Virus record (IMG/VR): IMGVR_UViG_3300029319_000232
Span: 1-33,604 of that record
DNA from: a virus
Direction: 5' to 3' (one strand)
Length of the DNA stretch: 33,604 nucleotides
Under the pieces are notes generated by a model. The model did no database searches. It was not told the origin of the DNA and was given only the letters and a program-made list of their open reading frames with translations. A program made the position numbers and the translations under genes. Of this stretch, positions 2-32,527 are shown in pieces (the first letter of the stretch is position 1; each line of letters opens with the position of its first letter).

Positions 2-556
2 GTTGATCCTGATCCAGACCCAACATATGCTCCAAGCTACATACCACAGCTTATGAAACAGTTGCAGGAAGATAGAGAAGCACTAAGAGCAGGTAGAGAT
101 CAGGACATGGGTCTAGCATTAATGACCGCAGGATTAAACATAGCAGACAGAGGTCAGCTATCAGCAGGTGTTGCAGGTGTAGAACAACTAGCACAGGCTA
201 ATCAGGCATACAGAGAGAACCTCAGAAACCTATCTGGTCTAGGTGTACAGGCAGGTGTAGCAGGAGATACATTAATGCAGAAAGCAATGCAGGCTAGAAT
301 GAGCTACGATAAGTCCATAGAGCTTGCTAAGATGCTAGGAGCAGGAGATTTGATAAAAGGTATCGGAACAATAGGTGATCAGTTGGCTTTAATAGAGCAG
401 TCAATACAGCTTGGTGTAGATGAAAACGAAATGCCATTGTCACCAGAAAAAACAGCAATGCTAAATGCAAAGAAAGATGCTCTATCAGAAATTTACAGTA
501 TGTTGATAGCAAGGACACAAGGAGAACTTGGTAAAAACGTGATTGCGAGTCCGTAA
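2..556 (+). CDS. Helical virion-associated protein, 5' end missing
   Basis: The reading frame is open from base 2, and the first ATG at 53 has no ribosome binding site, so that Met is internal and the gene starts before the window. The visible 184 residues are mostly predicted helix. They are rich in Ala, Gly and Gln and carry no motif I recognise. A stretch around residues 55-95 of the visible part (small residues plus Leu/Val) could be amphipathic. The stop codon overlaps the next start as TAATG at 554-558, so translation is coupled to the giant gene. By position, at the end of a structural block and next to a polyvalent protein, it may be an internal virion or tail-associated protein. That is inference; no family is assigned. 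Confidence 0.75.
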   Translation, partial: VDPDPDPTYAPSYIPQLMKQLQEDREALRAGRDQDMGLALMTAGLNIADRGQLSAGVAGVEQLAQANQAYRENLRNLSGLGVQAGVAGDTLMQKAMQARMSYDKSIELAKMLGAGDLIKGIGTIGDQLALIEQSIQLGVDENEMPLSPEKTAMLNAKKDALSEIYSMLIARTQGELGKNVIASP

Positions 557-3500
557 TGCCGTTAAAGTTAATTAGAAGCCCTGTGACTGGAGAATACTAT
601 CCAGTAAATATTGCAGGTGATACACCCACACCAGAAGAAAGAGAAAGAATAAGGCAATATCTTCTTATGAAAGAAAGAGAAGTGCCTGCTGTTCAAGAGG
701 AGATACAGAAGAACTACGCTCCTAAATCTGGTTTTGGTGCTTTAGGTGTAGGTGTAGATCAGGCAAAACATCTTGGTTTAAGCTTCTTGCAAGGCGTGAA
801 TAGGATGGTTGGCGATGACGAAGATGCTGACGAATATCAAGAAATGCTAAATAAGTTAGGCAGAAAAATACGTCAGGAAAGTGCAGGATTACAGAAATTT
901 AAAGAGATAGACAGCATTGGTGATGCGGCTCGATTTGCAGGTGAAACAATCTTACAAACAATACCTTCTACAGCCGTAGCTCTAACAGGTGCTGCAGCAG
1001 GTGTAGCAACATTACCTTTTTCAGGAACAGTATTAGGGGTTGGTGTAAGCGGTGCGTTAGGTGGTGCAGCAGCAAGCCTACCTTTATTTATGGGTGGAAA
1101 CAGAGAAGCACAAAAAGAAAGTTTAAGAAGACAAGGAAAGCCAGTAGAAGTGGACGAAGGTGCTGCGTTCTTTACTGCCTTACCCCAAGCGTTACTAGAA
1201 TCATGGGGAACAATTTTTATAACGTCTATAAAAAAAGCAGGATTGAAGGTAAACCCAAAAGCTTTTGAGAGCGGTGGTTTGTTTACTAGATTAGTAGATA
1301 AAGCCACAGGCACAGCACCAAGACGGATAGGTGGGGCTATCGGTACAGGTGCAATAGCAGAATCAGTAACAGAAGTAGGGCAATTGTTACTAGAAAGACA
1401 GCAAGCAGGTATGTCTATAGATTTTAACAACCCAGAGGTATTAGACCAGGTGATAGAGGCAGCCGTAGCAGGGGGTCTAGTTGGTGGTGTATTCAAAGGC
1501 GGTGTGACAGGTGTTAGTGAGTTTAGCGAAAGAAAGAAAAAAGCAGATAAACAAACAGAGCTAAACAATGATCTAGAAGAAGAATATAGACAAAATGTTG
1601 AAACGCAAAAAAATGCACAGCAATCATTTACAAATAACCCTGCATTACTTATGGCAGCAGAGGGGTCACCGATTACCGATGGTCTTACCAAAGCAGGAGA
1701 TGTACTGGCATCAGAAACGAGAGAGCCTAGACCTGTAAGACCAGAAGAACTAACAGCAAAACAAATATCAGTCATAAGAAATGAGAGAACAAAGAGAGGT
1801 GTATCTCTGGATGAAACGCAGTTTCCTATTACACTAGAGGAGATAAGAGCAACGCTAGGACCTAGAGAAGCAAGGAGACTAGCATCAAAACAAGGCATAC
1901 CAGTAAAAGATATTAACACCGCTACAGTTAATAAGTTTAGCTATGATCAATATAAGAAGGTATTAGAAAGCATCAGAAAAAATAAAGACAGAGATTTTTC
2001 TGAAGACAAGATTAATAAAATAATACAAAAGACAACAGGCTTTAAGTCAGGGGAACTGACACAAGCCATAAGAAACGAGCTTGTTGGTAGGGGTCATTTA
2101 AGAGCCACACAGGATCGTGCTTACCGAATGGAGACAGGTATGTCTATCCCTGTTGGTGAGGTCGAGTTCCAAAAAGCCAGAGAGTTTACAGAGGGAAGAC
2201 TAGCAAAAGAATCCAAACAGCTAGACGACAGAATAATAGAAGCAGAGAAGCAACTAGAGACAGGTCAGGTAGAGGGCAGAAAAGAAAGAGGCAAGAAAAG
2301 ATTCACGATGCCAACTCTGGCACAACAGTTACAGGACAAGATAGAACTAGCTAACAAGCTAGATACCATGAAAGACAATGTTACAGAGTCCGTAATACCT
2401 GCCATAAACAAACTTATAAAACCTTACATAGCAAACAAGACAGTCAAGCCTTTTAAGACACCGCTAGATGTGTTCAAAGGTATCAACACAATATTAGGTA
2501 GTGCTACAAGCAATAACTCTAGAGGTGTTCCTTATGGTCTTAGAAAAGAAATAAGAGACCTACAGGAAGAGGTTGCAAGAACAGAAAGAGGCATAGAAGC
2601 AGATAAGCAATCACATATGTTCTTACAGACAAGCGATTTTAGTGTGGACAATGTAAAGTTTGGAATGCGAGGATCAGATCAGGCTAATGATCCAGAAATG
2701 CTTTTTAGAAGACAGCAACAGAAAGAAGATCAGTTAGAGAAAAAAGAGAACGAATTAAACGAACAACAAAGCATAGAAAGAGAACAAAAGAAAGCTATAA
2801 AACAAAAGGCATCTGTAGCAAGAACATTAGAAGAGCAGGAAAAGTATGAAGCACAGGTGGATAAAGTTAAAGGTATACAAGAAGAAGTACAAAAACTAAG
2901 AAGAGATATAAAAGAACTTGAAGACATTAGAAGAAAGCCAACAGCTAGTGTTACACAAAATCAAGGTCAGAACCAATCAAACCAGATGAATGCCACAGCT
3001 AGTCTGGGTGCAAAAAATCCTTTTGTTAATGAGTATCAACAGAACCTAAATGAAGTAGGCGATAGATTAAGAAGCTATCTAAAAGATGATCTAAAGCTAA
3101 ACCCAGACAGGGTAGAGCTTATAACAAAGAACTACATACAGAAAGATGGCTTTGTTTTTGGTCAGGAGCAGAGAGCAGGACACAACAAAAGAGCTATAAC
3201 CCTAGCCATGCAGTTGTTTGATCGTGATACTATCGCTGATCCTGCAAAGCAGGACATGATCCTAGACAGGATTAAAGGTACGCTAAATCACGAAGTGCTA
3301 CACTCCCTCAGAGCGTTAGGATTGTTTACAGAACAGGAGTTCCAAACCCTTGTAAAAGCAGCGAATACGAGAAAGAAAGTCTTATGGCGTGAGGGTAAGG
3401 TTGTAGAAAGACAGTATACATATCTCGACAGGGTAAAAAGAATATACAGAAGAGATAGATTTCCTGACATGGGCGAGAAAGCATTTAATGACATGGTGCA

Positions 3501-6500
3501 GGAAGAGGCAGTGGCTGACCTATTCCAAGACGCTATGGATGGCAAGCTAAAGCTAGGTGGCGTACAAAAGACATTGCTACAAAGAATAATAGATTTCTTC
3601 AAAGCTATATACAAAGCTAATATCGATAATGAGTTTGATGACATCAGCCAGATTATAGAGGACGTTAAGTCTGGTAAAATAGGTATGAGAAAACCACAAG
3701 AACTTAGCTCTGATGATCAGGTTAGGTTCTCACTTGGAGAAGACACATACGAAAAAGCTAAAAGGCAAGGCATAAGTGCAGAAGAACTAGATGTATACTC
3801 TAGAGTCGAAGGGGCGAATGCTAACAAAAATATAACATCATTGGTTTTTGGCATGAGACAAATGACTGGTGGAGAAAACTTTGGAATAAACCCAGTTGGA
3901 TTTAGTCAAAGAGTAGACATAAACAATCCAAGCAACAACTATTTGCGAACAGTTATTGTGCCAATGGCAGAAGCAAAAAAGATACTTAACTTTTATCAAT
4001 ATTCGCCAACAGACCTTAAAGCTTATGATAATAACGATATAAATTCTCTAGTTGAGGGTATAAGAGACAATGATGTAAAGATATCGCCTATGCCAATTAG
4101 AGTAGCACCATCGGAAGATGGTAAATCTATTGCTAAGATTAATCATGCAAGATTTGTTTTTGATAAAGCATCAGGTGGCAACTCAAGATTAGCGGCTTTA
4201 GATAGACTTGGCTACAAGCACGTTGTAATGGATTTATTTCTTGATAAAGATTACGCAAGAACTCTTGATAAAACCAACAATGAAATTGAAGAACCAGACA
4301 GACAAAAAATAAATAAAGCAAATAACTTGGTAGTGAAAGGTTTCTCTGATCCTGGCGATATACTTACACCAGAAAACATAGAGGGTGCGGTATTTTCTAT
4401 AAATGGAAACAACTACGTTAGTGAGCAAAGAGTTAAAAATCTTAGTCCTCTAGGATTTGTCTCAAAAGCTCAAAAAGAAATAGAGCTAATGCCTCAAACC
4501 AAAGGAACAGGCGATCAATTTTTAGGTTACCTCCGTAAAAAAGATGTTAAAGAACAAGAGCTATACTGGACAGGTGTGCAAAGTTATCTAGAGGATAATA
4601 AAGAGGTAACAAAAGATGAGTTAGTTGCATTAATTAGAGCGAATAGAATAGATGTGCGAGAGGTCGAGATGACGGCTCGTGGTGACGCATCACAAAAGAC
4701 ATTTCCGATAAACTATCCAGAATATAAAAACCTGCTAAAGACAAAAGTAGAAGACCAAGATAGATTGGCAGATGAAATTATTACATTTAGCAACACGGGA
4801 AGCTTCTTAGACGGATCAGGGGCGAAGTTTATGCTAGAATATTATTCTAAACCAAGCGAAGCAGGAGCATACAGGCTTGCAAGAGGTGATTTAATTACAA
4901 GAAATGCTATACAATCATTTGGAACGCCTCATTTTGCAGAGTCAATAAAAATGGATTCTCTTGTTCGTTCTTCATCATTAAAGAAAACAATAGCATACGA
5001 AATAATAATTATTGAAAATATGAATAATTATCCTGACCAACCTTATTATTCTTTCGATTTTGATGAAAACGCTTCTAATACTACATTAGAGCAAACAGGG
5101 GGAGCCTATACAGAGAGTAATGATGTTATAGAAGGAGGTTTAGGAAAATCAGAACAAAGAAACAAAAAAGCATATCTTATGAGATACAACACTCTAGAAG
5201 ATATAAAAAATCAAAGTTTTGATATCCAAGATTTAGAGAGAGATGCGATAGTTAAGCTTGAATCCACAGGTCAAGATAGAGACACTGATAAAGACCTCAT
5301 CGAAGACATTACAGAGGAGGCAAAAAATCATTCTATTTACAAAGCAGAGGACTTTGGAGACTTGTCAGAGAGGGAAAATCTAATAAGAAAAAATAAATTA
5401 GATAATGAAAAGATAGCCAAAGAAAATGTTCAGATAAAAAGATTTAACGACAAAGTAGATCAAGAGATAGCAAGAATAGAAGAAAGTAACAGAAGTCTTG
5501 ACCCTGCTAGTTATGAAGAAAACACATTTAAAGGAGGAACTAATTTCAGGGTTATTGAAATAGAGCTTCCCTCTGAAATATTTCCAGATATTAAAGTTAA
5601 GCCTGCCCATTTTCAAGGGAAAAGACAGCTAGTATTTGCCCTTGTAAAAGAGCGTATCTATCCAGATGGCAAAAGAGTTTTATACGTTGATCAACTGCAA
5701 AGTGACTGGGGGCAAAGAGGAAGAGAAAGTGGTTTTGTAGATGCTGTAACGAACAAAGAAGTCGATGCGTTTAAGAAAAACATAGATATATTTTACAAAG
5801 GTTTATTAAATGCTCTAGACGATGCAGATGTGTCCTCAATAAATACTGCTTCTAATCTTAACATAGAAGATCAAATAATAAGAAAAAAGACAGCGATTAA
5901 TAAATTTAGAAAGGAAGCTTTAGAGCAGATAGAAAGATCAAGACGTAGATACACAGGGAGAGTATATCGTGAGGGCATAGATGCAGATACAAAGTTTCGC
6001 ACAGCACATAATTTATTCAGTAGGATGCAGAGGTCATTAGAGGTAAGTGACGTTGAAAAGGCTGCCTCTCACGATATTACGGGAGGGTTTTTGGCTACAA
6101 ATATGCCTGACTCTTCAAAAAAAGCATATGAAGAAGTAAGAACAAGCAAGCTTTTACAAAAAGGTGTTTATCCAGATGCTCCTTTTATAAGCAATACAAA
6201 AGCGTGGTCGGAGTTGATGGTCAAAAGACTGTTAAAGAAAGCATCAGATGAAGGATTTGATTATGTAACTTTCCCAGACGGAGAGCTTGTGCAGAACTTG
6301 GTTGGCATGAGAAATGAAGGAAAAGATTATTATGATAATCAGCTAAAGAATTATGTAAAAGGAATTGTAAATCCAATTGATAAAGATGCCTATATTGGAA
6401 CGTATCAAGATGCCGTAATAAAACTTCTTGGCAAAGCAGGTAAAGAATTGCCACTTAGATCAAGAGAGTTGTTGGGGGTATTACAAACTAAAGAAGCAAG

Positions 6501-9500
6501 ACAAACAGCAAGTGAATTAGATAGGTTAGGGTTTGAACTAGCAAAACAAGAATTAACAAAAACAGAGGGATTTAAAAGAGCCTTATTATTTGATACTGCT
6601 GCGGTTCAACAAGGAAATCCATCTGTGCAGAGAGGTAATATACCTGACGAATTTGGAGCGAAGCTATTATCAAAGTTGCCCATGAAAGAACAGCTTGAGT
6701 TTAAACAATTTCAAGATGCACAAAAAACAACATGGCTTCAGCACGTTAAAACAAGAGGAGGCTTTAGCCCAGTAGAGGAGCAGGGCTTTCTATTTCAGAA
6801 AAAGTACTATGATACTTATTTTGATCAAGACGGAAATTTTAAATCTAATGAGGAGCTAGGATTAAGATTTGGCGTGGAGGATCAAGGTCTTAATGTTCCC
6901 ACACCCTCTGGTGGAGCAGATGATGTATTAGCAACTGTAAACAATATTGCATCTGCTGATCATATTGCTTTAAGCAAAGGATACACAGTACGCCTTACAC
7001 CAAAACTTAAAGTAACATTAAATCAGGGTCAGTTATCTTTTTCTCTTGGATACACACCTGAAGGAGACAATGTTACTGGAATAGATAAGACTCTTATGGA
7101 GAGGGTTATATCAACTCTCACAGAGAACCAGTATCTCATATCCTCACTGCCAGAACTAGAAGATGACCCAAAGGGCGATCCGACACTTAACTTTAGAAAT
7201 CTAATACCGTCCACAGGAAGACGTAATGTTCCTGTAGTGATGAGAGACTACCTGACACACAGACAGAACAGAGCAGGTGACTTTAGAATAAATCTAGATG
7301 ACGTAACGGATGCTGATAAAGATAACATTTCTACGATAATGGCAGCCGAAGCAGAGGTTGCACTAGCCAGAGATGGCAACGCAATAGGATGGTATGATGC
7401 TAAATTTAGAGCGGCTAAAAGTTTAATTGGTCTCATACGTCCAGAGATACTCAATAACCCTGAACATGATGCAGTGTTTGATTATGCGTTGGCAGTTACA
7501 TCTAACGGTATAGCAGTCAATCAAAACTTTGATTACGCATTAAGACAATATGATTATTGGGTAGAGAACGGTAAGTTTGAAGAGGTAGGTTATGGGCAGT
7601 CAGCAAAGGCTATGGAAGCTCACTTTGCCTTGTACAATACGCTCACTGACCTAATGAAGTCTGGTGACTATAAGAGACCAAAGAGACTAGACAATTACCC
7701 ACCAGAAGCCATAGGCGTAGACATAGAACATTTCCTCGACAGAGATATAAAAATCAGAGACCTGATAAATGACCCTGTATTGAGCGGTATAGCAGAGAGA
7801 AGTGGGGTAAGTCTTTCATCACTAGGATCACAGGAGAAGAAAGACACTGTGGTTAAGATGTCAACGATTATAGGGTCGAAGATAGGTGGTGGATTCTATC
7901 AGAACCTCAGAGGTAACTATGATCCTTTGACTATGGATAAATGGTGGATGCGTTTCTTTAATAGAATTACAGGAAATCCATTTAAGGTACCTCAGGATAA
8001 AACACAGCTAAAAAATTATAACGATTTTCTACAAGAGATAACTGTTAACAAAGCTAATCTAAAGCCAATAGAAAAACAGCTTCTCAAGCAAGCTAGGAAC
8101 ATGATAGGAAACGTGCCTCTGCGTAGAGACATGACAGCTAGAACAAACCAAAGAATGGATCAGCGAGTTATTGATTTAGCTATAGAGTATTCAATTCTAA
8201 GAAATGCCTATTACAATAGAATGTCTGACGGTGCTATAGAGGGCTTTCCAGATGGTGTGGTTGGTAAAGGTCCTAACAAAACAACGCCAGAGGAAAACAT
8301 ACTTATAAGGTCTACAAACAGAGATAGATATGACCTTAATCAAAAACCGCAGTCTGTTTTACTAGCGGATAGCATAAAGAGAAATTTTAAAGACTTTCCT
8401 GCTGACTCACCAAGAAGTGCGACAGATCGTGAGTTGATGAGAGAAACAACAGAGATGGCTATAAAAAAATTAGAGCAACGTGGTGTAGTTGCCAGAGGTG
8501 CTTTAACAAACTCTGACTTTCAAGCATTAATGTGGTTCCATGAAAAAGAACTTATGGACAAGTTAGGAGCTAAACTAGGGAGCGGAGAGCAAAATGATTT
8601 TGTAGATAGTGCCATACAAGCACTAAGAGAGAGAGGTATAGACGATGACACGATTAAGGAAACACTCCCCATTGCTGAACGAGGAAGGATCGTTGGTGCA
8701 GGAGATGCCGAAAGAAGAGTTGCCGAACCTAGCGAAGGCTCTATTGCGGCTAGGCAACAACTCGCAACTTTCAAAAGCGTTAAAGAAAAGAACGACATTA
8801 CAAGAAAACAAGCAGAAGACATCAAGAAAGAGCTAGATCAAGATCGACAGAAGTACTACAGCTTGGGATACATTCCAGAAGAAAGAGAAAGAGACAGAGC
8901 AAACTTTGAAAGCACACTAAGAGCTAACGTGCAGGACTTCCAACATAAATGGAACTACAGTGCATCATCAGACTTTGTCGCTAAAATACTAGGTGGCATC
9001 AAGATAGGGCAAAGCTTTCAGCTAGGATACAGTGATGAAAAAGCCAAAGCATTATCTGATCTCTTTATTAGAAAGTTCCAAGACAGAATGATACCTGTGT
9101 CTAGAATGGTGGATGAGTTACAGGAGAAAGGATTTAAACTAACAGATGCTCTCAATCCTATTATGCAGGCTAGACTATCACAGGGTAAAGCAAACGAAGA
9201 GATACGAGACAAGAGAGAGACAATCCACAAGGATGTAGTTGAAGCTGTAGCAAAGCTTAACTTTACAGACGCAGATTTTGAGCAACTCAAGAGTGTATCG
9301 AATGCCGCTACTGACCCTGACCAAGGAGGAGAGGGCTACATAGAGGTGGTCATGAAAGATTTTATGCCATCGTTCTGGAGAAGGATGTTGTTTGGCACAC
9401 CAAGCAAGAAGTTGGTCATGGCAGAAACATATCTCTATGCTCTACACGCTAAAGAGAGAAACAACTATGTCAGAGAGATTGATGTAAACAACATCAATCA

Positions 9501-11967
9501 ATTTAAGGACAGAGGTTCTGGTATGTCTGACAGAGAAGCAGATGCCATATTGAACTGGTTTAGAAACCAGGAGAGAGAACTAGAAAACTTAAACGACATA
9601 CGCACAAAGATACAAAGAGTAATAGACGATACCAACGAAGTGAGAAGAAACTCTGGTCTACAGGCTATGTTCTTACGAGGGTCAAACTGGACGAACTATA
9701 TACCTTTGAGAGGTGCTTTCGATCCAGAAGATGAGACCGTTGACTTTAACAATGCAGGTCAGCGTAAAGCCCCACTGTTTGGTAGTAAAGGTAGAGAAGA
9801 CCCTGTAGTCAAAGGCAGAATAGATTATGCTCCTAATCTAATTGTAAACGCATTAACACAGAACGCTAACTCCATCATGAGGGCGGCTCAGAATAACGTG
9901 GGTCGTGTGGTGTTGGACATGATCAGAGAAGACCCTGTGATGCTTCAAGAGTTTGCAACCATACAGGACACAGTGCCAGAAAGAATGTTTGTGGATGCAC
10001 GAACAGGGGTTCTAAGCAAGAGACCTGCCACAAGGGATGATGTTGCTAAAGACAAGCACATATTAATTGTAAAAGAAAACGGCAACGAAGTTGTCATACG
10101 GTTTAACAGTGCTGTGGTTGCAGGGGCGTTTAGAGGTGATACTGGTGCAGGAGATGCGGCAAGCAACTCTTACTTGATGATGGCTAACAAGTTCAACAGA
10201 TATTTGTCTAGTATTAACACCACGTTTAACCCAGAATTTATTATTCCTAACTTTGTCCGTGACGTACAAACAGCAGCGGTTAACATTGATCAGTACGAGG
10301 GTGAAAGACTAAAGACACTAGTGGTAAAAAGGTCACCTGCTATGGCTAGAGGTATATATAGAGCCGTACAGAAGAACGATATGTCCTCACCAGAAGCCCA
10401 GATGTACGAAGCTTTTGTAAAAGCAGGTGGTAAGAACGTAACCAACCAGATGACTACACTTGGTGATCAGGTTGCTGATATACAAAACACCTTGAATGCC
10501 ATATCCGAAGGCGGAGCTAGAGGTGGGTTAGCCAAAATGAAAGATAATTTTGTAGGTAAAAAGGTTGGCTCTTTAATAAACTGGATAGAGAATACCAACA
10601 CTGCTATGGAAAACGCAGTTCGTGTATCCACATTTGAAGCTTTGTTAAACACAGGTCGATACACAGAGCAACAGGCAGCCCTAGCCGCTAGAGAGATTAC
10701 AGTGAACTTTGCTAGAGGTGGTGAGTATAAAACATTCCTAAACTCTCTGTATCTGTTCTTCAACGCATCATTACAGGGAACATTTGCCCTAGCAGAAGCC
10801 GCTACAAGATCAAAGAATGTAAGACGTTTGTGGGTGGGCATAGTCGTAGCAGGTATATTGTCTGATCAAATCAATGCATTCTTTTCTGATGAAGATGAAG
10901 ATGGCATACTAATCTACGACAAAACAACAGACTTTACATTAGAGCATAATTTTCTCATACCTAATTTAGCAGGCAAGGCTATGGATGCTGTAAGAGATGA
11001 AGAGGATAATGTCCTCCAGAAAAACTCTTTCTCTATCCCACTGCCCTACGGAATAAACTTAGCGTTCAATGTGGGTCGTTCTCTCAGCAGAAGAATGAGA
11101 GGGGCATACACTCCTGCACAGGCAACAAGCTCTATAATGTCCACGACATTTGAAGCTCTTAATCCTTTAGGTGGTTCCGAAAGCATTGCTAATATGGCAG
11201 CTCCTACGATTGGTGATCCATTAGTTAGTCTTTGGCAAAACATAAACTACGATAAAACACCCATAACAAAACAAGTATCGCAGTTTGCGGTGGGTACGCC
11301 AGATAGTCAGACATATTGGAATAGTGCAAGTCCTATGTCTATAAGCATCGCTCAGTTTTTAAACAGAGCATTAGGTGGGAACGAAGTAAAGAGCGGAATG
11401 ATAGATGTCAGTCCAGATACGTTGGACTTCTTGTTCAACTATTTTACAGGTGGTGCAGGTATGTTTGTCCAAAGGACAGCCACATTTGGATATGACTTGT
11501 CTACAGGAAATGTCTTTGAAGCATTTGAAGATGGTCTCACGGGAGAAGCGGTTAGGGAACAGATTAGGAAAACACCAATACTTAGAAAAGCTATTACGTC
11601 CGTATCAGAAAGAGAAGATACAGGTAAGTTTATACAGAAAAGAAACGTCATATTCGGTGCGAAGAAAGAACTAAAAGAAGCCATAGCCACTAGAGATATG
11701 GACGAGATTAGAAGAGTTAGAAATAAGTTTCCTAAAGAGTTAAGGATATATGGAATAATCAGAGCCATAAACACGAAGAGACAGAAGCTTACATCACTCA
11801 GAAACAAACTGATCAGAGCAGAGAAGACAGCGAAGAACAAAGATGTATACGAAGCTAGGATAAAGAGACTAGATAAGCAGATACAGGCTTTGATAGGTAG
11901 AGGTAATTCTCTAATGAAAAATATCGAACTCGACTTCTTTACAGAGTATGGCTTAACAGGGTATTGA
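556..11967 (+). CDS. Giant polyvalent virion-type protein (3803 aa)
   Basis: A single uninterrupted frame fills a third of the window. Features in order: a Gly/Ala-rich hydrophobic stretch at about 130-180 (possible membrane insertion); charged coiled coil at about 720-795; HEVLH zincin motif at 912-916; a segment at about 1150-1225 ending in SGGNSRLAAL (1206-1215) that resembles ParB-like folds; the QSDW motif at 1715-1718, followed by an AW...K helix and FDYVTFPDGE from 1883, a pairing recurrent in polyvalent proteins; GWYD at 2278-2281 with a downstream AVTSNG/NF signature; an AETYLYALHAKERN...GSGMSD block near 2956-2995; NPEFIIPNFVRD at 3225-3236, as in the LPD38-type domain; a C-terminal coiled coil after about 3690. 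Family knowledge: such proteins are packaged in virions and injected with the DNA to protect or process it. The exact activities here are inferred from motifs; only the zincin motif is a clear catalytic signature. The gene may also supply the T7-like internal core function. Confidence 0.85.
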   Translation: MPLKLIRSPVTGEYYPVNIAGDTPTPEERERIRQYLLMKEREVPAVQEEIQKNYAPKSGFGALGVGVDQAKHLGLSFLQGVNRMVGDDEDADEYQEMLNKLGRKIRQESAGLQKFKEIDSIGDAARFAGETILQTIPSTAVALTGAAAGVATLPFSGTVLGVGVSGALGGAAASLPLFMGGNREAQKESLRRQGKPVEVDEGAAFFTALPQALLESWGTIFITSIKKAGLKVNPKAFESGGLFTRLVDKATGTAPRRIGGAIGTGAIAESVTEVGQLLLERQQAGMSIDFNNPEVLDQVIEAAVAGGLVGGVFKGGVTGVSEFSERKKKADKQTELNNDLEEEYRQNVETQKNAQQSFTNNPALLMAAEGSPITDGLTKAGDVLASETREPRPVRPEELTAKQISVIRNERTKRGVSLDETQFPITLEEIRATLGPREARRLASKQGIPVKDINTATVNKFSYDQYKKVLESIRKNKDRDFSEDKINKIIQKTTGFKSGELTQAIRNELVGRGHLRATQDRAYRMETGMSIPVGEVEFQKAREFTEGRLAKESKQLDDRIIEAEKQLETGQVEGRKERGKKRFTMPTLAQQLQDKIELANKLDTMKDNVTESVIPAINKLIKPYIANKTVKPFKTPLDVFKGINTILGSATSNNSRGVPYGLRKEIRDLQEEVARTERGIEADKQSHMFLQTSDFSVDNVKFGMRGSDQANDPEMLFRRQQQKEDQLEKKENELNEQQSIEREQKKAIKQKASVARTLEEQEKYEAQVDKVKGIQEEVQKLRRDIKELEDIRRKPTASVTQNQGQNQSNQMNATASLGAKNPFVNEYQQNLNEVGDRLRSYLKDDLKLNPDRVELITKNYIQKDGFVFGQEQRAGHNKRAITLAMQLFDRDTIADPAKQDMILDRIKGTLNHEVLHSLRALGLFTEQEFQTLVKAANTRKKVLWREGKVVERQYTYLDRVKRIYRRDRFPDMGEKAFNDMVQEEAVADLFQDAMDGKLKLGGVQKTLLQRIIDFFKAIYKANIDNEFDDISQIIEDVKSGKIGMRKPQELSSDDQVRFSLGEDTYEKAKRQGISAEELDVYSRVEGANANKNITSLVFGMRQMTGGENFGINPVGFSQRVDINNPSNNYLRTVIVPMAEAKKILNFYQYSPTDLKAYDNNDINSLVEGIRDNDVKISPMPIRVAPSEDGKSIAKINHARFVFDKASGGNSRLAALDRLGYKHVVMDLFLDKDYARTLDKTNNEIEEPDRQKINKANNLVVKGFSDPGDILTPENIEGAVFSINGNNYVSEQRVKNLSPLGFVSKAQKEIELMPQTKGTGDQFLGYLRKKDVKEQELYWTGVQSYLEDNKEVTKDELVALIRANRIDVREVEMTARGDASQKTFPINYPEYKNLLKTKVEDQDRLADEIITFSNTGSFLDGSGAKFMLEYYSKPSEAGAYRLARGDLITRNAIQSFGTPHFAESIKMDSLVRSSSLKKTIAYEIIIIENMNNYPDQPYYSFDFDENASNTTLEQTGGAYTESNDVIEGGLGKSEQRNKKAYLMRYNTLEDIKNQSFDIQDLERDAIVKLESTGQDRDTDKDLIEDITEEAKNHSIYKAEDFGDLSERENLIRKNKLDNEKIAKENVQIKRFNDKVDQEIARIEESNRSLDPASYEENTFKGGTNFRVIEIELPSEIFPDIKVKPAHFQGKRQLVFALVKERIYPDGKRVLYVDQLQSDWGQRGRESGFVDAVTNKEVDAFKKNIDIFYKGLLNALDDADVSSINTASNLNIEDQIIRKKTAINKFRKEALEQIERSRRRYTGRVYREGIDADTKFRTAHNLFSRMQRSLEVSDVEKAASHDITGGFLATNMPDSSKKAYEEVRTSKLLQKGVYPDAPFISNTKAWSELMVKRLLKKASDEGFDYVTFPDGELVQNLVGMRNEGKDYYDNQLKNYVKGIVNPIDKDAYIGTYQDAVIKLLGKAGKELPLRSRELLGVLQTKEARQTASELDRLGFELAKQELTKTEGFKRALLFDTAAVQQGNPSVQRGNIPDEFGAKLLSKLPMKEQLEFKQFQDAQKTTWLQHVKTRGGFSPVEEQGFLFQKKYYDTYFDQDGNFKSNEELGLRFGVEDQGLNVPTPSGGADDVLATVNNIASADHIALSKGYTVRLTPKLKVTLNQGQLSFSLGYTPEGDNVTGIDKTLMERVISTLTENQYLISSLPELEDDPKGDPTLNFRNLIPSTGRRNVPVVMRDYLTHRQNRAGDFRINLDDVTDADKDNISTIMAAEAEVALARDGNAIGWYDAKFRAAKSLIGLIRPEILNNPEHDAVFDYALAVTSNGIAVNQNFDYALRQYDYWVENGKFEEVGYGQSAKAMEAHFALYNTLTDLMKSGDYKRPKRLDNYPPEAIGVDIEHFLDRDIKIRDLINDPVLSGIAERSGVSLSSLGSQEKKDTVVKMSTIIGSKIGGGFYQNLRGNYDPLTMDKWWMRFFNRITGNPFKVPQDKTQLKNYNDFLQEITVNKANLKPIEKQLLKQARNMIGNVPLRRDMTARTNQRMDQRVIDLAIEYSILRNAYYNRMSDGAIEGFPDGVVGKGPNKTTPEENILIRSTNRDRYDLNQKPQSVLLADSIKRNFKDFPADSPRSATDRELMRETTEMAIKKLEQRGVVARGALTNSDFQALMWFHEKELMDKLGAKLGSGEQNDFVDSAIQALRERGIDDDTIKETLPIAERGRIVGAGDAERRVAEPSEGSIAARQQLATFKSVKEKNDITRKQAEDIKKELDQDRQKYYSLGYIPEERERDRANFESTLRANVQDFQHKWNYSASSDFVAKILGGIKIGQSFQLGYSDEKAKALSDLFIRKFQDRMIPVSRMVDELQEKGFKLTDALNPIMQARLSQGKANEEIRDKRETIHKDVVEAVAKLNFTDADFEQLKSVSNAATDPDQGGEGYIEVVMKDFMPSFWRRMLFGTPSKKLVMAETYLYALHAKERNNYVREIDVNNINQFKDRGSGMSDREADAILNWFRNQERELENLNDIRTKIQRVIDDTNEVRRNSGLQAMFLRGSNWTNYIPLRGAFDPEDETVDFNNAGQRKAPLFGSKGREDPVVKGRIDYAPNLIVNALTQNANSIMRAAQNNVGRVVLDMIREDPVMLQEFATIQDTVPERMFVDARTGVLSKRPATRDDVAKDKHILIVKENGNEVVIRFNSAVVAGAFRGDTGAGDAASNSYLMMANKFNRYLSSINTTFNPEFIIPNFVRDVQTAAVNIDQYEGERLKTLVVKRSPAMARGIYRAVQKNDMSSPEAQMYEAFVKAGGKNVTNQMTTLGDQVADIQNTLNAISEGGARGGLAKMKDNFVGKKVGSLINWIENTNTAMENAVRVSTFEALLNTGRYTEQQAALAAREITVNFARGGEYKTFLNSLYLFFNASLQGTFALAEAATRSKNVRRLWVGIVVAGILSDQINAFFSDEDEDGILIYDKTTDFTLEHNFLIPNLAGKAMDAVRDEEDNVLQKNSFSIPLPYGINLAFNVGRSLSRRMRGAYTPAQATSSIMSTTFEALNPLGGSESIANMAAPTIGDPLVSLWQNINYDKTPITKQVSQFAVGTPDSQTYWNSASPMSISIAQFLNRALGGNEVKSGMIDVSPDTLDFLFNYFTGGAGMFVQRTATFGYDLSTGNVFEAFEDGLTGEAVREQIRKTPILRKAITSVSEREDTGKFIQKRNVIFGAKKELKEAIATRDMDEIRRVRNKFPKELRIYGIIRAINTKRQKLTSLRNKLIRAEKTAKNKDVYEARIKRLDKQIQALIGRGNSLMKNIELDFFTEYGLTGY
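6799..6820. repeat. Dispersed 22-bp palindrome, intragenic copy
   Basis: AAAAAGTAC, TATG, ATACTTATT: two mismatches from the consensus arms. It lies within the giant gene, where it encodes part of a KKYYDTY stretch. It is one of ten copies in the window and could have arisen partly by chance in coding sequence. Confidence 0.5.
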
Positions 11968-12013: not shown

Positions 12014-12206
12014 TTGTTTTTGGATAACAAATAGTGTGTTGTTTGCGTAATTCTTTTTTCATATCTGCAATAGCATCAATTAAGTAATCAATTTTCATAA
12101 CAACAGGCAAGTCATCATACAACTCAGTAAACTCAGCTTTTAGTTCTTCTGAGTCCATATCGTATTTGTGTTTAATTAAAACTGATTTATTTTTCATTCT
12201 AGTCAT
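12000..12206 (-). CDS. Small hypothetical protein (68 aa), last gene of the leftward operon
   Basis: This is a charged, mostly helical protein with an acidic middle and a basic C-terminus (KTKK). I recognise no family. Its ATG overlaps the methyltransferase stop as ATGA (12203-12206), which supports translation by coupling and a real gene. A second Met at residue 4 is an alternative start. The last codons lie in the dispersed palindrome. It could be a small accessory protein of the methyltransferase, but only the gene order suggests this. Confidence 0.65.
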   Translation of the reverse strand: MTRMKNKSVLIKHKYDMDSEELKAEFTELYDDLPVVMKIDYLIDAIADMKKELRKQHTICYPKTKKVP

Positions 12207-13279
12207 TTTACATTAACCTTTGTAAAGAGAGGTGTCTCACCCATAAGTCTGTCTTCAGCTATCTCAACATAGTCTTTATTAAGTTCTATAATAGTAGCGT
12301 TCCTATTTAATCTGTCTGCCACCAACCCTGTGGTTCCCGATCCGCCAAAGGGGTCAAGAACGTGTCCGTCCTTTGGACAGCCTGCCTTGATACAGGGTTC
12401 TATTAGATCAGTAGGGAACACAGCAAAGTGTGCTTCTTTGTATGGTCTTGTATTTATTGTCCAGACAGACCGTTTGTTTCTGGTGTCATACATTTTATTA
12501 TCGCCACCAAAATTATTTTGCTCGTACCTGTTTGTTGAACCACCTCTCATAACATCCTTGTATGTGGCTTCTTCCTGTATAGCCTCATGGTCAAAGTAGT
12601 AATGTGAGTTCTTGCTCAATAGAAAGATATACTCATGTGCTTTAGTGCATCTATCTTTTACTGATTCGGGCATAGGGTTTGGCTTATGCCATATTATATC
12701 CTGCCGTAGATACCATCCGTCTTCCTGTAGAGCGAATGCCACTCGCCAAGGTATGCCCATCAAATCTTTCTCTTTTAGTCCTTGTATCTTGTTTGCCCTG
12801 TTCGGACTCACCTCTGGCTGATCATGTTTGTCTTTATGGAGTGTTTGCTTAACATTTAACCCATCTGCACGATAGTTGTGATATGTGTCGCCCAAATTTA
12901 GCCATACAGTGCCGTCTTCTTTTAGGGTATCTCTTACTCCACGGAACACCTCTACAAGCCGTCTGACGTAATCCTGGGGGGTCAATTCTAAGCCAATTTG
13001 CGAATCTTGACGCTCTGCACCGCATATTGGACACTTTTGCCTGTAAATGGCATCTCCTACTACATCTCCGTGGTCATACATATTTGCATGACCTGTAGCT
13101 GTATCTTTGGATATCTTGGTTAGTCTTTTGTGAGGACAGTTTGGGTCACCACCCACCCACGTTCCTGTATTGTAGTCACGGAGTCCGTAGTAGGGCGGTG
13201 AAGTAACAACAGTATCAAAGTGATTCTTTGGTAATGTCTTTAGAACCTCTAGGCAATCACCTATCTTTATGTTGATCAT
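12203..13279 (-). CDS. Site-specific DNA methyltransferase, beta class (N6-adenine or N4-cytosine)
   Basis: It transfers a methyl group from S-adenosylmethionine to an exocyclic amine of A or C in DNA. The catalytic motif TSPPY is at 26-30 and the AdoMet-binding motif DPFGGSGTTG at 309-318. This order (motif IV before motif I) is that of the beta class. Residues 48-86 carry CPH and CPIC, an inserted zinc-ribbon-like element that may help read the target. The 358-aa length is normal. No restriction endonuclease is adjacent, so it looks like an orphan phage enzyme, which usually protects phage DNA from host restriction or regulates transcription. Its first 23 bases overlap the preceding gene. 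The target sequence cannot be read from the protein. Confidence 0.92.
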   Translation of the reverse strand: MINIKIGDCLEVLKTLPKNHFDTVVTSPPYYGLRDYNTGTWVGGDPNCPHKRLTKISKDTATGHANMYDHGDVVGDAIYRQKCPICGAERQDSQIGLELTPQDYVRRLVEVFRGVRDTLKEDGTVWLNLGDTYHNYRADGLNVKQTLHKDKHDQPEVSPNRANKIQGLKEKDLMGIPWRVAFALQEDGWYLRQDIIWHKPNPMPESVKDRCTKAHEYIFLLSKNSHYYFDHEAIQEEATYKDVMRGGSTNRYEQNNFGGDNKMYDTRNKRSVWTINTRPYKEAHFAVFPTDLIEPCIKAGCPKDGHVLDPFGGSGTTGLVADRLNRNATIIELNKDYVEIAEDRLMGETPLFTKVNVK

Positions 13280-20219: not shown

Positions 20220-20332
20220 GGTGCGTACCATAAAACTACAAGTATCCATAAACCCACGATGCCACCTAAAAGAAGTACAAGTGATACCGCATCAACAATT
20301 GTCTTTAAGACTTCTAACCAATTGATCTTCAT
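20216..20332 (-). CDS. Single-span membrane micro-protein (38 aa)
   Basis: A 38-codon gene lies between two others with ATGA overlaps at both ends, which is the main reason to accept it. The N-terminus MKINWLEVLKTIVDA is amphipathic, followed by a membrane span from about residue 16 to 36 (VSLVLLLGGIVGLWILVVLW). It could be a pinholin, a regulator of the neighbouring membrane protein, or an inhibitor of a host membrane complex; sequence does not decide. Confidence 0.6.
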   Translation of the reverse strand: MKINWLEVLKTIVDAVSLVLLLGGIVGLWILVVLWYAP

Positions 20333-21615
20333 GACGTTATCTCCAACTCGTTAGCAATCCTAGTGACAAGCTTCTTGTCTAGGTCTCTGTTAGCCTTACC
20401 TATGTCCTCATGAACTGCGTGAAGAACATCACCGCTTGGCAAAGTCTTAGCCATAAGGAAAAGGTTAGGTATCACATTAGGAGTAAACTCATAGCCTTTA
20501 TGCATTCCCTCTTTGTCAGTATACCCATTAGCTTCAGTTCTTTTAGTGAAAGCAAAGTCAACAAAGTTACCCTTGTATAACTTCTTGCCCTCTTTCTTGA
20601 CCCAATCCAATTCAACATAAGAGCCTTTCTTTTCATCGTACTTTTTATAAACAGTAAGGCTCATAGGAAACAAAGGTCTGTTGCCCATGTATGATTTGCC
20701 AAAGTAAGAACACCGCTCGTTCCACATAGGTGAAACCTGCAATGTCCATTCTTTGTTGCTATAGGATTTAGTAGTCATCTGGCAGGTACGCTTCAAGAAT
20801 GCTTTGGTAGAGTACTTGACCTTATCCTCTGGGTTCCAATCATACTTTGTTTTTTCACCAAAAAATGACATGGGCAAGTGAACCTGTACATCTGAATTAT
20901 TCTTAGCATCTTCTAGCAGACCCTTAGACTTTCTCAGCAAATCAACATACGTTGCTCCACTCTCAGATTCTATGTAAGTGTTACATTGTACATCTAGATG
21001 TTCATATGCTTTTGGAAATTCACTAGCTAGTGATCTATCAGCTCCATATCTAGCACTACCTAAACGACTATCTATTTTAGAAAAATATGAAGTGTTTTGA
21101 GAATCGTATCTAAGGTCTTTCAAAGACTCCAACTGATGAACAAAACCCATAAGATTAGCACCAACATCACCACTAGAATAATCTCTAGAGAAGTTACCAA
21201 AATTTTCAGCAAAGACATAAGCTTGTCTGATATCTCCGCCTGCGGTGTTCTCCTTTTTAATAGTTACTGACTTAGAACCTAACCGCCTGCCTGTGCTATG
21301 TTGTGTGTGATACGTTCTATTCTTTTCATTAGAAACATCAGCAATAAAGTCTTTTGGAATGTCTAATGTCTCTCTCTGAAAGTTTACACATTGTGCAAGT
21401 TTTATCTTTGCAAGATATTGTTTAACAGCAGTTTCTCTTTTCCTACCTGCTTTATCTTGGGCGGTCTTCCAATACCATCTAGGTCTCTTGTTATAGATAT
21501 AGTCTTTAGCTTCCTGCTTAGTGTCAAATATCTTTCCATCTGGCATAACCGTCCATGTGTATTCTGGCGGTTCACCTACAGACGTAGCCTGCTTTATGAT
21601 TGTGCGTTTTTCCAT
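20329..21615 (-). CDS. Large hypothetical protein (428 aa) in the MoxR/VWA operon
   Basis: I recognise no family. It is soluble, with no signal peptide or membrane span. The N-terminal 60 residues (YTWTVMPDGKIFDTKQEAKDYI) look like a small alpha/beta element; a basic, Ser/Asn-rich middle (residues about 95-190) follows, and a beta-rich C-terminal half. Cysteines are scattered, not paired as in zinc sites. AAAAGGAA precedes the ATG. A long hairpin carrying the dispersed palindrome fills the 115-bp gap upstream, so its expression may be set apart from the ATPase and VWA genes. By gene order it could be the substrate or effector of that pair. Confidence 0.8.
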   Translation of the reverse strand: MEKRTIIKQATSVGEPPEYTWTVMPDGKIFDTKQEAKDYIYNKRPRWYWKTAQDKAGRKRETAVKQYLAKIKLAQCVNFQRETLDIPKDFIADVSNEKNRTYHTQHSTGRRLGSKSVTIKKENTAGGDIRQAYVFAENFGNFSRDYSSGDVGANLMGFVHQLESLKDLRYDSQNTSYFSKIDSRLGSARYGADRSLASEFPKAYEHLDVQCNTYIESESGATYVDLLRKSKGLLEDAKNNSDVQVHLPMSFFGEKTKYDWNPEDKVKYSTKAFLKRTCQMTTKSYSNKEWTLQVSPMWNERCSYFGKSYMGNRPLFPMSLTVYKKYDEKKGSYVELDWVKKEGKKLYKGNFVDFAFTKRTEANGYTDKEGMHKGYEFTPNVIPNLFLMAKTLPSGDVLHAVHEDIGKANRDLDKKLVTRIANELEITS

Positions 21616-28621: not shown

Positions 28622-29497
28622 ATGGCAGAAGATAAAGACAAGAAACGAAAAGAAATTCGTGAAAGACTAAAAAAGTCTAGAGAGAGTGGTGGAATAGATC
28701 GGAGTATAAACCGACTTACTGTCAGTTCGCCAGGTGGTGATCCAACCAATAGAAACAAAGACGGCAGTATCAAAAGAACAAAACAAATAAGAAAAGAATT
28801 TTCTACGAAAGAAAGTGTTCTTCCTAAAAAGAGAGTTGTTAAGAAAACAACAGTTAAAGCAGACCCTGCTAAAAAGACAACAAAGAAAGGCTCACCAAAA
28901 GGTCAAGCAGGAAAAGGTGCATCTCCATTAGAGGGTAAGCCAAGAAGTATAGCAGAAGCAAAGAGAAGAGGTGAAGTATACTTCTTTGATAGCAAGGGTG
29001 TTAAGAAGATAGCGGCTACTGCGGCAGACTTGAAAAGAACAGGACTGACACTTAGACAGTACGCTAATAAGTTTGCGCCTAAAAAACAAACTAAGAAACA
29101 CGCAGAATCATTAAAAGGTTTTGCCGCCATTAAAAAGAAAAGAGCAGGCGGTATGATGAAGAAAAAAGGCATGGCTCGTGGTGGCATGATGATGAAAAAG
29201 AAGGGCATGGCTAAAGGCGGTGCTATGAAGAAGAAAGGAATGGCTGCAGGCGGTAAGCTTAAAATGGTCATGAAAGATGGTAAGAAAGTACCTTTCTTTG
29301 CCGCAGACGGTAAAGGTAAAATGCGTGGCGGTGGCATGATGAAGAAGAAGGGCTACGCTATGGGTGGAGCCATGAAGAAAAAGGGTATGGCAAAAGGCGG
29401 AGCCATGAAAAAGAAGGGCTACAAAAAAGGCGGTAAAGTTCTTAAAATGAGAGGTGGAGGTCTAGCCACAAGGGGTACGAGCTTCACAATTAAATAA
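28622..29497 (+). CDS. Lys/Gly/Met-repeat protein (291 aa)
   Basis: GAGGAG before the ATG supports the start. The N-terminal half is very basic with alternating Lys and Thr/Pro, and contains GEVYFFDSKGVKKIAATAAD and LKRTGLTLRQYANK (about 119-150), a pattern I recall in marine phage proteins. From residue 178 come six 11-residue repeats of the form MMKKKGMAxGG, interrupted by KLKMVMKDGKKVPFFAADG, and the protein ends with the KMRGGG tail shared with the previous gene. It is likely a DNA- or capsid-binding virion component, by composition and place. TAATG couples it to the portal gene. Confidence 0.75.
   Translation: MAEDKDKKRKEIRERLKKSRESGGIDRSINRLTVSSPGGDPTNRNKDGSIKRTKQIRKEFSTKESVLPKKRVVKKTTVKADPAKKTTKKGSPKGQAGKGASPLEGKPRSIAEAKRRGEVYFFDSKGVKKIAATAADLKRTGLTLRQYANKFAPKKQTKKHAESLKGFAAIKKKRAGGMMKKKGMARGGMMMKKKGMAKGGAMKKKGMAAGGKLKMVMKDGKKVPFFAADGKGKMRGGGMMKKKGYAMGGAMKKKGMAKGGAMKKKGYKKGGKVLKMRGGGLATRGTSFTIK
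29153..29463 (+). repeat. Six 33-bp coding repeats
   Basis: Six copies of an 11-codon unit (x-M-K-K-K-G-[MY]-A/K-x-G-G) lie in two blocks of three, separated by a 27-residue spacer ending KMRGGG. Codon differences between copies show that they have diverged and are maintained at the protein level rather than freshly duplicated. Confidence 0.85.
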
Positions 29498-32155: not shown

Positions 32156-32527
32156 ATGTATCAAGCTGTAAAGAAGGAAGGAGACCCAAAGGTCGCTTCC
32201 AAAATGCCTGAACCAAAGGGCTACAAACTCCTAATATCCCCAGTAGAAGTAGACGAGAAAACAGAAGGCGGTCTGTATATGCCTGACCAGATAAGAGATG
32301 CTGAAGGTATAGCGTCAATTATAGGGTTTGTGGTTAGTATGGGTGCTGATGCCTACAAGGATAAAGACAAGTTTCCAAATGGTGCGTACTGCAAAGTAGG
32401 TGATTTTGTGATATTTCGATCCTATTCAGGAACCCGTTTTAAAATACACACACAGGAATTTAGATTAATTAACGATGACACGGTTGAAGCCGTTGTCGAT
32501 GACCCAAGAGGATATAAGAGAATATGA
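32156..32527 (+). CDS. GroES-like co-chaperonin (123 aa)
   Basis: It probably caps host GroEL during folding of head proteins, as T4 gp31 does. The GroES beta-barrel is visible: PKGYKLLISPVEV, the mobile-loop region TEGGLYMPDQIRDAEG (about 37-52), a GFVVSMGADAY strand, then KVGDFVIFRSYSG. The C-terminal part ends with RLINDDTVEAVVDDP. GAGGTAAAA before the ATG supports the start. Its place before the scaffold and capsid genes fits a folding helper for the major capsid protein. The preceding 70-bp gap with a palindrome and small hairpins suggests that its expression is set apart from the portal gene. Confidence 0.88.
   Translation: MYQAVKKEGDPKVASKMPEPKGYKLLISPVEVDEKTEGGLYMPDQIRDAEGIASIIGFVVSMGADAYKDKDKFPNGAYCKVGDFVIFRSYSGTRFKIHTQEFRLINDDTVEAVVDDPRGYKRI

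Follow-up and report, generated by a model that had tools for sequence, protein, structure and literature searches.

A giant phage polyvalent protein with an exchangeable block behind its peptidase-like domain

Giant proteins that phages eject into their hosts are known, but their cargo has been identified in few cases. A gene for a protein of 3803 residues lies at positions 556-11967 (+) of the window, by which we mean the whole stretch of 33,604 bases analysed here, a single IMG/VR record with a GC content of 39.6%. The question raised by this locus is what so long a chain carries, and which parts of it are cargo and which delivery machine.

The frame runs uninterrupted from an ATG to a single terminal stop. 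When the bases of the window were shuffled 20 times, no open frame exceeded 200 codons, and a frame of 3803 codons is therefore not a product of chance. Comparison with a related locus, L002, gave a dN of 0.008 and a dS of 0.19 over residues 1-400, a dN of 0.002 and a dS of 0.125 over residues 2760-3200, and dN/dS ratios of about 0.015-0.1 in most regions of the conserved part of the protein, hereafter the chassis; the gene thus encodes a real, constrained protein under strong purifying selection. The frame had been singled out in the original prediction together with five motifs, HEVLH (residues 912-916), QSDW (1715-1718), GWYD (2278-2281), GSGMSD (2987-2992) and NPEFIIPNFVRD (3225-3236), and all of them were found exactly as placed. 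The share of one-third ascribed to the gene applies to the window only: as the contigs of relatives reach 50-52 kb and the genomes of known relatives 52-65 kb, the window is a genome fragment, and the gene makes up about one-fifth of the genome instead of a third.

By terminase and portal, the nearest phages are HTVC027P, HTVC023P, Pag-Yong1, DSL-LC04 and CRP-901 (about 52-65 kb). Three phage records (OQ594354, OL906435 and PP438419), with Synechococcus, Planktothrix and Planktothricoides given as hosts, are each exactly 65,014 bp long with identical match scores, and probably represent a single phage that was named three times. Elsewhere in the window, a gene for a GroES co-chaperonin (32156-32527, +; phrog_3188 at 1.2e-13) lies downstream of the portal gene, and HTVC027P and CRP-901 likewise have an annotated GroES among their head genes. 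A DNA methyltransferase gene (12203-13279, -; phrog_67 at 1e-73) faces the end of the giant gene from the opposite strand, and PHROG matches were absent or weak for ORFs of 428 residues (20329-21615, -) and 291 residues (28622-29497, +).

Polyvalent identity and conserved chassis

The only Pfam domain above its cut-off was LPD38, at residues 3454-3643 (10915-11484, +), with 107 bits against a cut-off of 27 and an E-value of 1.5e-30; the scores of NCBIfam Endoglyc_H and Pfam rve_3 fell under their cut-offs and were taken as chance. In the excerpted text of PMC5512222, LPD38 is reported from phage-type polyvalent proteins only, and the match supports the assignment of the giant ORF to the large polyvalent proteins of phage type, as originally predicted. 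Three giant PHROG families of unknown function span residues 2847-3772. The C-terminal 1203 residues matched 128 phage records, mostly of Vibrio phages, but also of Burkholderia phages, Ruegeria phage 45A6, Stx-converting phages and a Pelagibacter phage, whereas the first 1300 residues matched no phage record. A sequence search of the whole chain against solved structures returned no match.

The bounds of the regions N1, N2, PEP, MID and C1-C2 were taken from profiles built on the closest relatives. The most widely conserved of them in profile comparison was C1-C2, at residues 2770-3790 (8863-11925, +), which contains GSGMSD and NPEFIIPNFVRD; these roughly 1020 C-terminal residues are kept in the giant genes of many podophages. 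The C-terminal profile was found in 112 loci, which came from scans of IMG/VR and GTDB and from two individual records; 88 remained after removal of near-identical tails, and both C1 and C2 were recovered in 86 of these 88. The structure alignment (n = 65) left out near-duplicates, two loci fetched by annotation (L011 and L012) and one with ambiguous residues (L044). The predicted structure of C1-C2 was good (pLDDT 80.8, pTM 0.80) and had 63 matches among predicted viral proteins at E<=0.001, many named polyvalent and some named after transglycosylase, RelA/SpoT or restriction-methylase regions; in the PDB, Foldseek gave none at E<=0.001. The best VIA-align likeness to a PDB entry, a helical bundle at Z 9.2, was uninformative, with the rows lying mainly on the C-terminal helices.

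At the other end of the chain, N1 (residues 1-332; 556-1551, +) has a glycine-rich hydrophobic stretch near residues 159-177, which is possibly membrane-active; a 19-mer with a mean hydropathy above 1.5 was present within the first 350 residues in 23 of 31 N1 members. The following N2 (residues 331-716; 1546-2703, +) was found in the closest relatives only, and weakly in L033. Further on, MID (residues 2195-2757; 7138-8826, +) contains GWYD and recurs in Limnohabitans phage DC33, within its giant gene. The record of this phage (PQ492659) is filed under Inoviridae and is probably misclassified; its 39-kb genome includes tail genes as well as a 3125-residue polyvalent gene with LPD22 and ART-PolyVal. 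Ten selected ORFs in total were compared across HTVC027P, Pag-Yong1, CRP-901 and DC33, and no chassis match was obtained among those of HTVC027P and CRP-901; the chassis may be absent from some known relatives.

Between N2 and MID, PEP (residues 800-1060; 2953-3735, +) holds the HEVLH motif (3289-3303, +). Residues H912, E913, H916, E983 and E984 were each conserved in 49 of 49 relatives, fitting, at motif level, a zincin-like HExxH site of the kind described for polyvalent proteins in the available portion of PMC5512222. The protease-like module of the original prediction is supported by the invariant HExxH and EE pair, but not by the Pfam MPTase-PolyVal profile (PF18818), which had no match at E<=10 in the records of the window, L002 or L008.

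The link to the virion comes from homologues. In Burkholderia phage JC1, residues 3608-4514 of gp69 (4515 residues) matched the C-terminal profile at E=6e-156, and gp69 was detected by mass spectrometry in CsCl-purified virions, with gp67 (196 residues) and gp68 (510 residues) also virion-associated, according to the excerpted text of PMC9144972. The small, mid-size and giant order of gp67, gp68 and gp69 was confirmed. In close relatives of the window, the gene immediately preceding the giant one usually encodes about 420-800 residues and follows a gene for about 300 residues; in the window, the 3' part of the former is present at positions 2-556 (+), cut by the window edge and corresponding to residues 235-418 of a 418-residue ORF of L002. 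The 301-residue upstream gene of L008 matched phrog_4287, a DNA ejection protein, at 2.5e-20, and the small upstream gene of DC33 matched phrog_418, an internal virion protein. Across phage groups, the mid-size genes had no BLAST match to one another or to N4 gp51, except those of L005, L008 and L048, and the parallel among them is therefore one of order and size, not of demonstrated homology. That the giant protein would be virion-borne and ejected is well supported at the level of homology, its virion location being deduced from these homologues.

Exchange of the block after the peptidase-like domain

When the giant proteins of the window and L002 were compared, identity over aligned residues was 95% before PEP, 99% in PEP, 85% in the MID part and 99% in C1-C2, whereas only 40% of residues were identical in a block at residues ~1061-2165 (3736-7050, +), hereafter the slot. 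Its edges are sharp: nucleotide identity was 100% at residues 1050-1059, had dropped to about 50% by residue 1090 and was back above 90% at residue 2170. The dS was 1.6-1.8 or saturated (not computable) within the slot, compared to 0.11-0.28 in the flanks that are conserved. Because dS is raised alongside dN, positive selection was rejected as the chief source of the divergence; the pattern corresponds to replacement by a distant allele rather than to fast selection in one lineage. Patches of raised dS were also found in the flanks, at residues 701-850 (0.50), 2190-2540 (0.74), 2541-2620 (1.7) and 2621-2760 (0.40), and those across 2190-2760 imply that MID takes part in some of the exchange. 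The GC content of the payload, that is, the content of the slot, was 35.6%, against 40-41% outside it, in both the window and L002. The contig of L003, which is 93% identical to the window, begins at query residue 2162, on the right-hand slot boundary; such a start would be expected in a sample where one chassis is combined with several payloads.

The same region varies in other lineages. L048 and L049 are set apart by about 500 residues in the slot at a C1-C2 dS of 0.24, and L024 and L025 by an indel of about 250 residues that begins where PEP ends; the segment inserted in L024 is also present immediately behind PEP in L029, L059, L061, L064 and L084. The reverse was found between L048 and L051, with a dS of 0.11 in the slot, yet 0.88 in C1-C2 and 1.0 in the N terminus. 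A hand tally over 49 proteins gave 34 pairs with a C1-C2 identity of at least 80%, pairs that share members and so are not independent; in 15 the slot trailed PEP and C1-C2 alike by 15 points or more, 18 had no such drop (the slot being conserved in groups such as L067/L068/L070/L073), and in one, L048/L051, the slot was the more conserved part. In proteins without MID, the whole span from PEP to C1 was taken as the slot. Pfam matches in the slots of 46 relatives were to DUF7178 (15), PBECR5 (5), ART-PolyVal (4) and Phage_L5_gp82 (4), with single LPD23, NUDIX and HATPase domains and weak matches besides. A conserved chassis with an exchangeable block directly after the peptidase-like domain is one of two new observations of this work, the other being the QSDW unit described next.

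The QSDW unit in the payload

The window payload had no Pfam or NCBIfam match. Most of it is occupied by the QSDW unit (residues ~1295-2165; 4438-7050, +), which is discontinuous, with large helical insertions, and has a predicted GNAT-like core. This unit was found in at least 512 viral loci, where it mostly follows a segment termed P2; it also occurs in separate proteins, some 700-830 residues long. From 81 distinct ORFs, 62 rows were retained, namely the window and those that also hold the P2 segment, and the Q, S and D of the QSDW motif (5698-5709, +) were invariant in all 62. No GNAT family was among the Pfam matches of these 62 members, and neither the window record nor that of L002 was matched by the Pfam Acetyltransf_1 profile. 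A family labelled endolysin (phrog_7348) matched 36 of the 62 proteins; the label, which probably stems from a fused domain, was not used as a function. A ParB-like (DdrB-like ParB) domain at residues ~1140-1245 was suggested by eye and rejected, as ParB_N gave no match at E<=10 and local pLDDT was about 31-46.

The AlphaFold model of the payload was weak overall (pLDDT 59.6, pTM 0.56), with many core blocks at 80-98. VIA-align placed GNAT acetyltransferases in 44 of the 50 matches listed, at Z 7.2-9.3 over 116-173 aligned residues, the other six being helical bundles on one insertion. Five of the 44 were M. tuberculosis ICL2 or Rv1916, the C-terminal domain of which is GNAT-like. Foldseek alone gave no match below E=0.1, with GNATs among its top rows, and the GNAT-like fold of the QSDW unit is therefore considered likely rather than established. 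An independent precedent is the giant protein of phage 45A6, in which a Pfam-recognised GNAT lies just before the peptidase-like region, and GNATs are listed among polyvalent domains in the accessible text of Iyer et al. 2017 (PMC5512222). The host-countering modules of the original prediction are supported in part: in relatives they are represented by PBECR5 and ART-PolyVal in the slot; for the window payload, what stands is a fold prediction, the GNAT-like one.

Residues E1666, R1696 and E1713 were kept in 60 of the 62 rows and replaced only in the window and L002; H1694, kept in 55, is F in these two. Since the window and L002 share these changes at about 40% identity, and dN is below dS where computable, the block seems to be maintained, and its function would appear to have been altered rather than lost.

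Proposed role, alternatives and known systems

Taken together, we consider it probable that the gene encodes a podophage polyvalent protein that is packaged in the virion and ejected, composed of a conserved chassis, a peptidase-like domain and a recombining payload slot, here filled with a GNAT-like QSDW payload. The chassis, with its hydrophobic N-terminal region, its HExxH domain and C1-C2 with LPD38, would bring the protein into the capsid and pass the cell envelope together with the DNA. The zincin-like domain would then probably cleave the chain near itself, releasing what follows, while recombination would replace, insert or delete the content of the slot and leave the chassis in place. 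The QSDW payload could plausibly be a protein modifier, or a non-catalytic derivative of one, acting early on a host target. The frame, the homology, the mosaicism and the conserved motif are computed results; virion location is deduced from homologues, and ejection, cleavage, acetyltransferase-like action and the target are inferences. A bolder version, put forward tentatively, is that the virion gene is a cargo bay, in which a fixed docking point behind a self-processing peptidase receives anti-host modules by recombination; QSDW would then stand for a sizeable family, so far unrecognised, of GNAT-fold modifiers that are injected, and the window copy either a non-catalytic binder or an enzyme of changed chemistry.

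A protein with a mainly structural or ejectosome role, comparable to T7 gp16 or to the parts of N4 gp50 other than the polymerase and assisting DNA passage through the envelope with its entire chain, would also be expected to follow ejection-type genes, to have a hydrophobic N terminus and to be most widely conserved in C1-C2, and the replacement of near-invariant residues in the window payload would suit a variable block that is host-adapted structure and not effector. However, the slots of relatives hold effector-type enzymes (PBECR5, ART-PolyVal and NUDIX), the QSDW unit is also found in separate proteins, and the swapping of entire enzymatic modules is more in keeping with cargo than with a structural part; we consider this explanation unlikely. 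Much less probable is that the swap is an artefact of metagenome assembly, even though the loci are mostly metagenomic contigs and L003 starts at the slot edge, where strain mixtures break assemblies. Near-identical payloads are present in L002 and L004, from differently numbered datasets, the window frame is intact over both junctions, the payload differs in GC content from its flanks in the window and L002 alike, and in three separate lineages it is between one and the same pair of domains that exchange or indels occurred. That the protein is a virion RNA polymerase like N4 gp50 is scarcely credible: in spite of a similar size, a hydrophobic N terminus, an HExxH domain (HELVH at 2228 in gp50), a large helical C-terminal part and a weak match of the CC profile to gp50 residues 3164-3289, the CC, PEP, MID and N1 profiles gave nothing convincing against gp50 in hmmsearch or hhalign, polymerase domain included, and the C-terminal regions of eight schitoviruses reached a best hhalign probability of 1.7%, that of a match of about 81 columns at the gp50 end that looked suggestive by eye.

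The reading of a virion-borne chassis with a recombining slot makes the choice between cargo and delivery machine directly testable, and with defined slot edges, cargo can be found by comparing near-identical chassis. If true, the GNAT-like assignment would supply an initial hypothesis for a phage module that is very common and has no Pfam or NCBIfam model. In the titles and abstracts of the literature searched, neither a defined exchange slot nor a GNAT-like reading of QSDW was found, and other papers may differ.

Among known systems, the closest framework is that of the polyvalent proteins of Iyer et al. 2017 (PMC5512222), with which the giant protein shares a multidomain chain of giant size, LPD38, a zincin-like HExxH domain, effector domains (present in the slots of relatives and putative in the window copy) and a neighbourhood of structural genes. 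Many activities in one injected chain, processing by the peptidase (proposed) and extensive mosaicism (noted in some of these proteins) are thus already in print; compared to the excerpted text of that paper, the exchange is mapped here to a slot beside the peptidase-like domain, with dS on both sides, and the payload has a QSDW unit without a Pfam or NCBIfam match. The 'DarB-like' proteins of Burkholderia phages, JC1 gp69 and Bcep22 gp75, share the C-terminal ~900 residues and the small, mid-size and giant gene order, but gp69 differs in its length and in its transglycosylase-like and helicase-type regions, as far as the consulted sections of PMC9144972 describe it, and was not matched by the PEP, MID, N1 or QSDW profiles. 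N4 gp50, in the portion of PMC12633501 available, is an ejected giant, as the window protein probably is, and shares with it a similar size, a membrane-like N terminus, an HExxH motif and ejection-protein neighbours, but differs in its RNA polymerase, which was not detectable in the giant protein by the N1, PEP, MID and CC profiles. The 'large polyvalent protein' of Planktothrix phage Pag-Yong1, a relative by terminase and portal, is shorter (2772 residues) and was unmatched by the PEP, MID and QSDW profiles, but shares C-terminal homology (4e-35) and N1 (8e-9) with the protein of the window.
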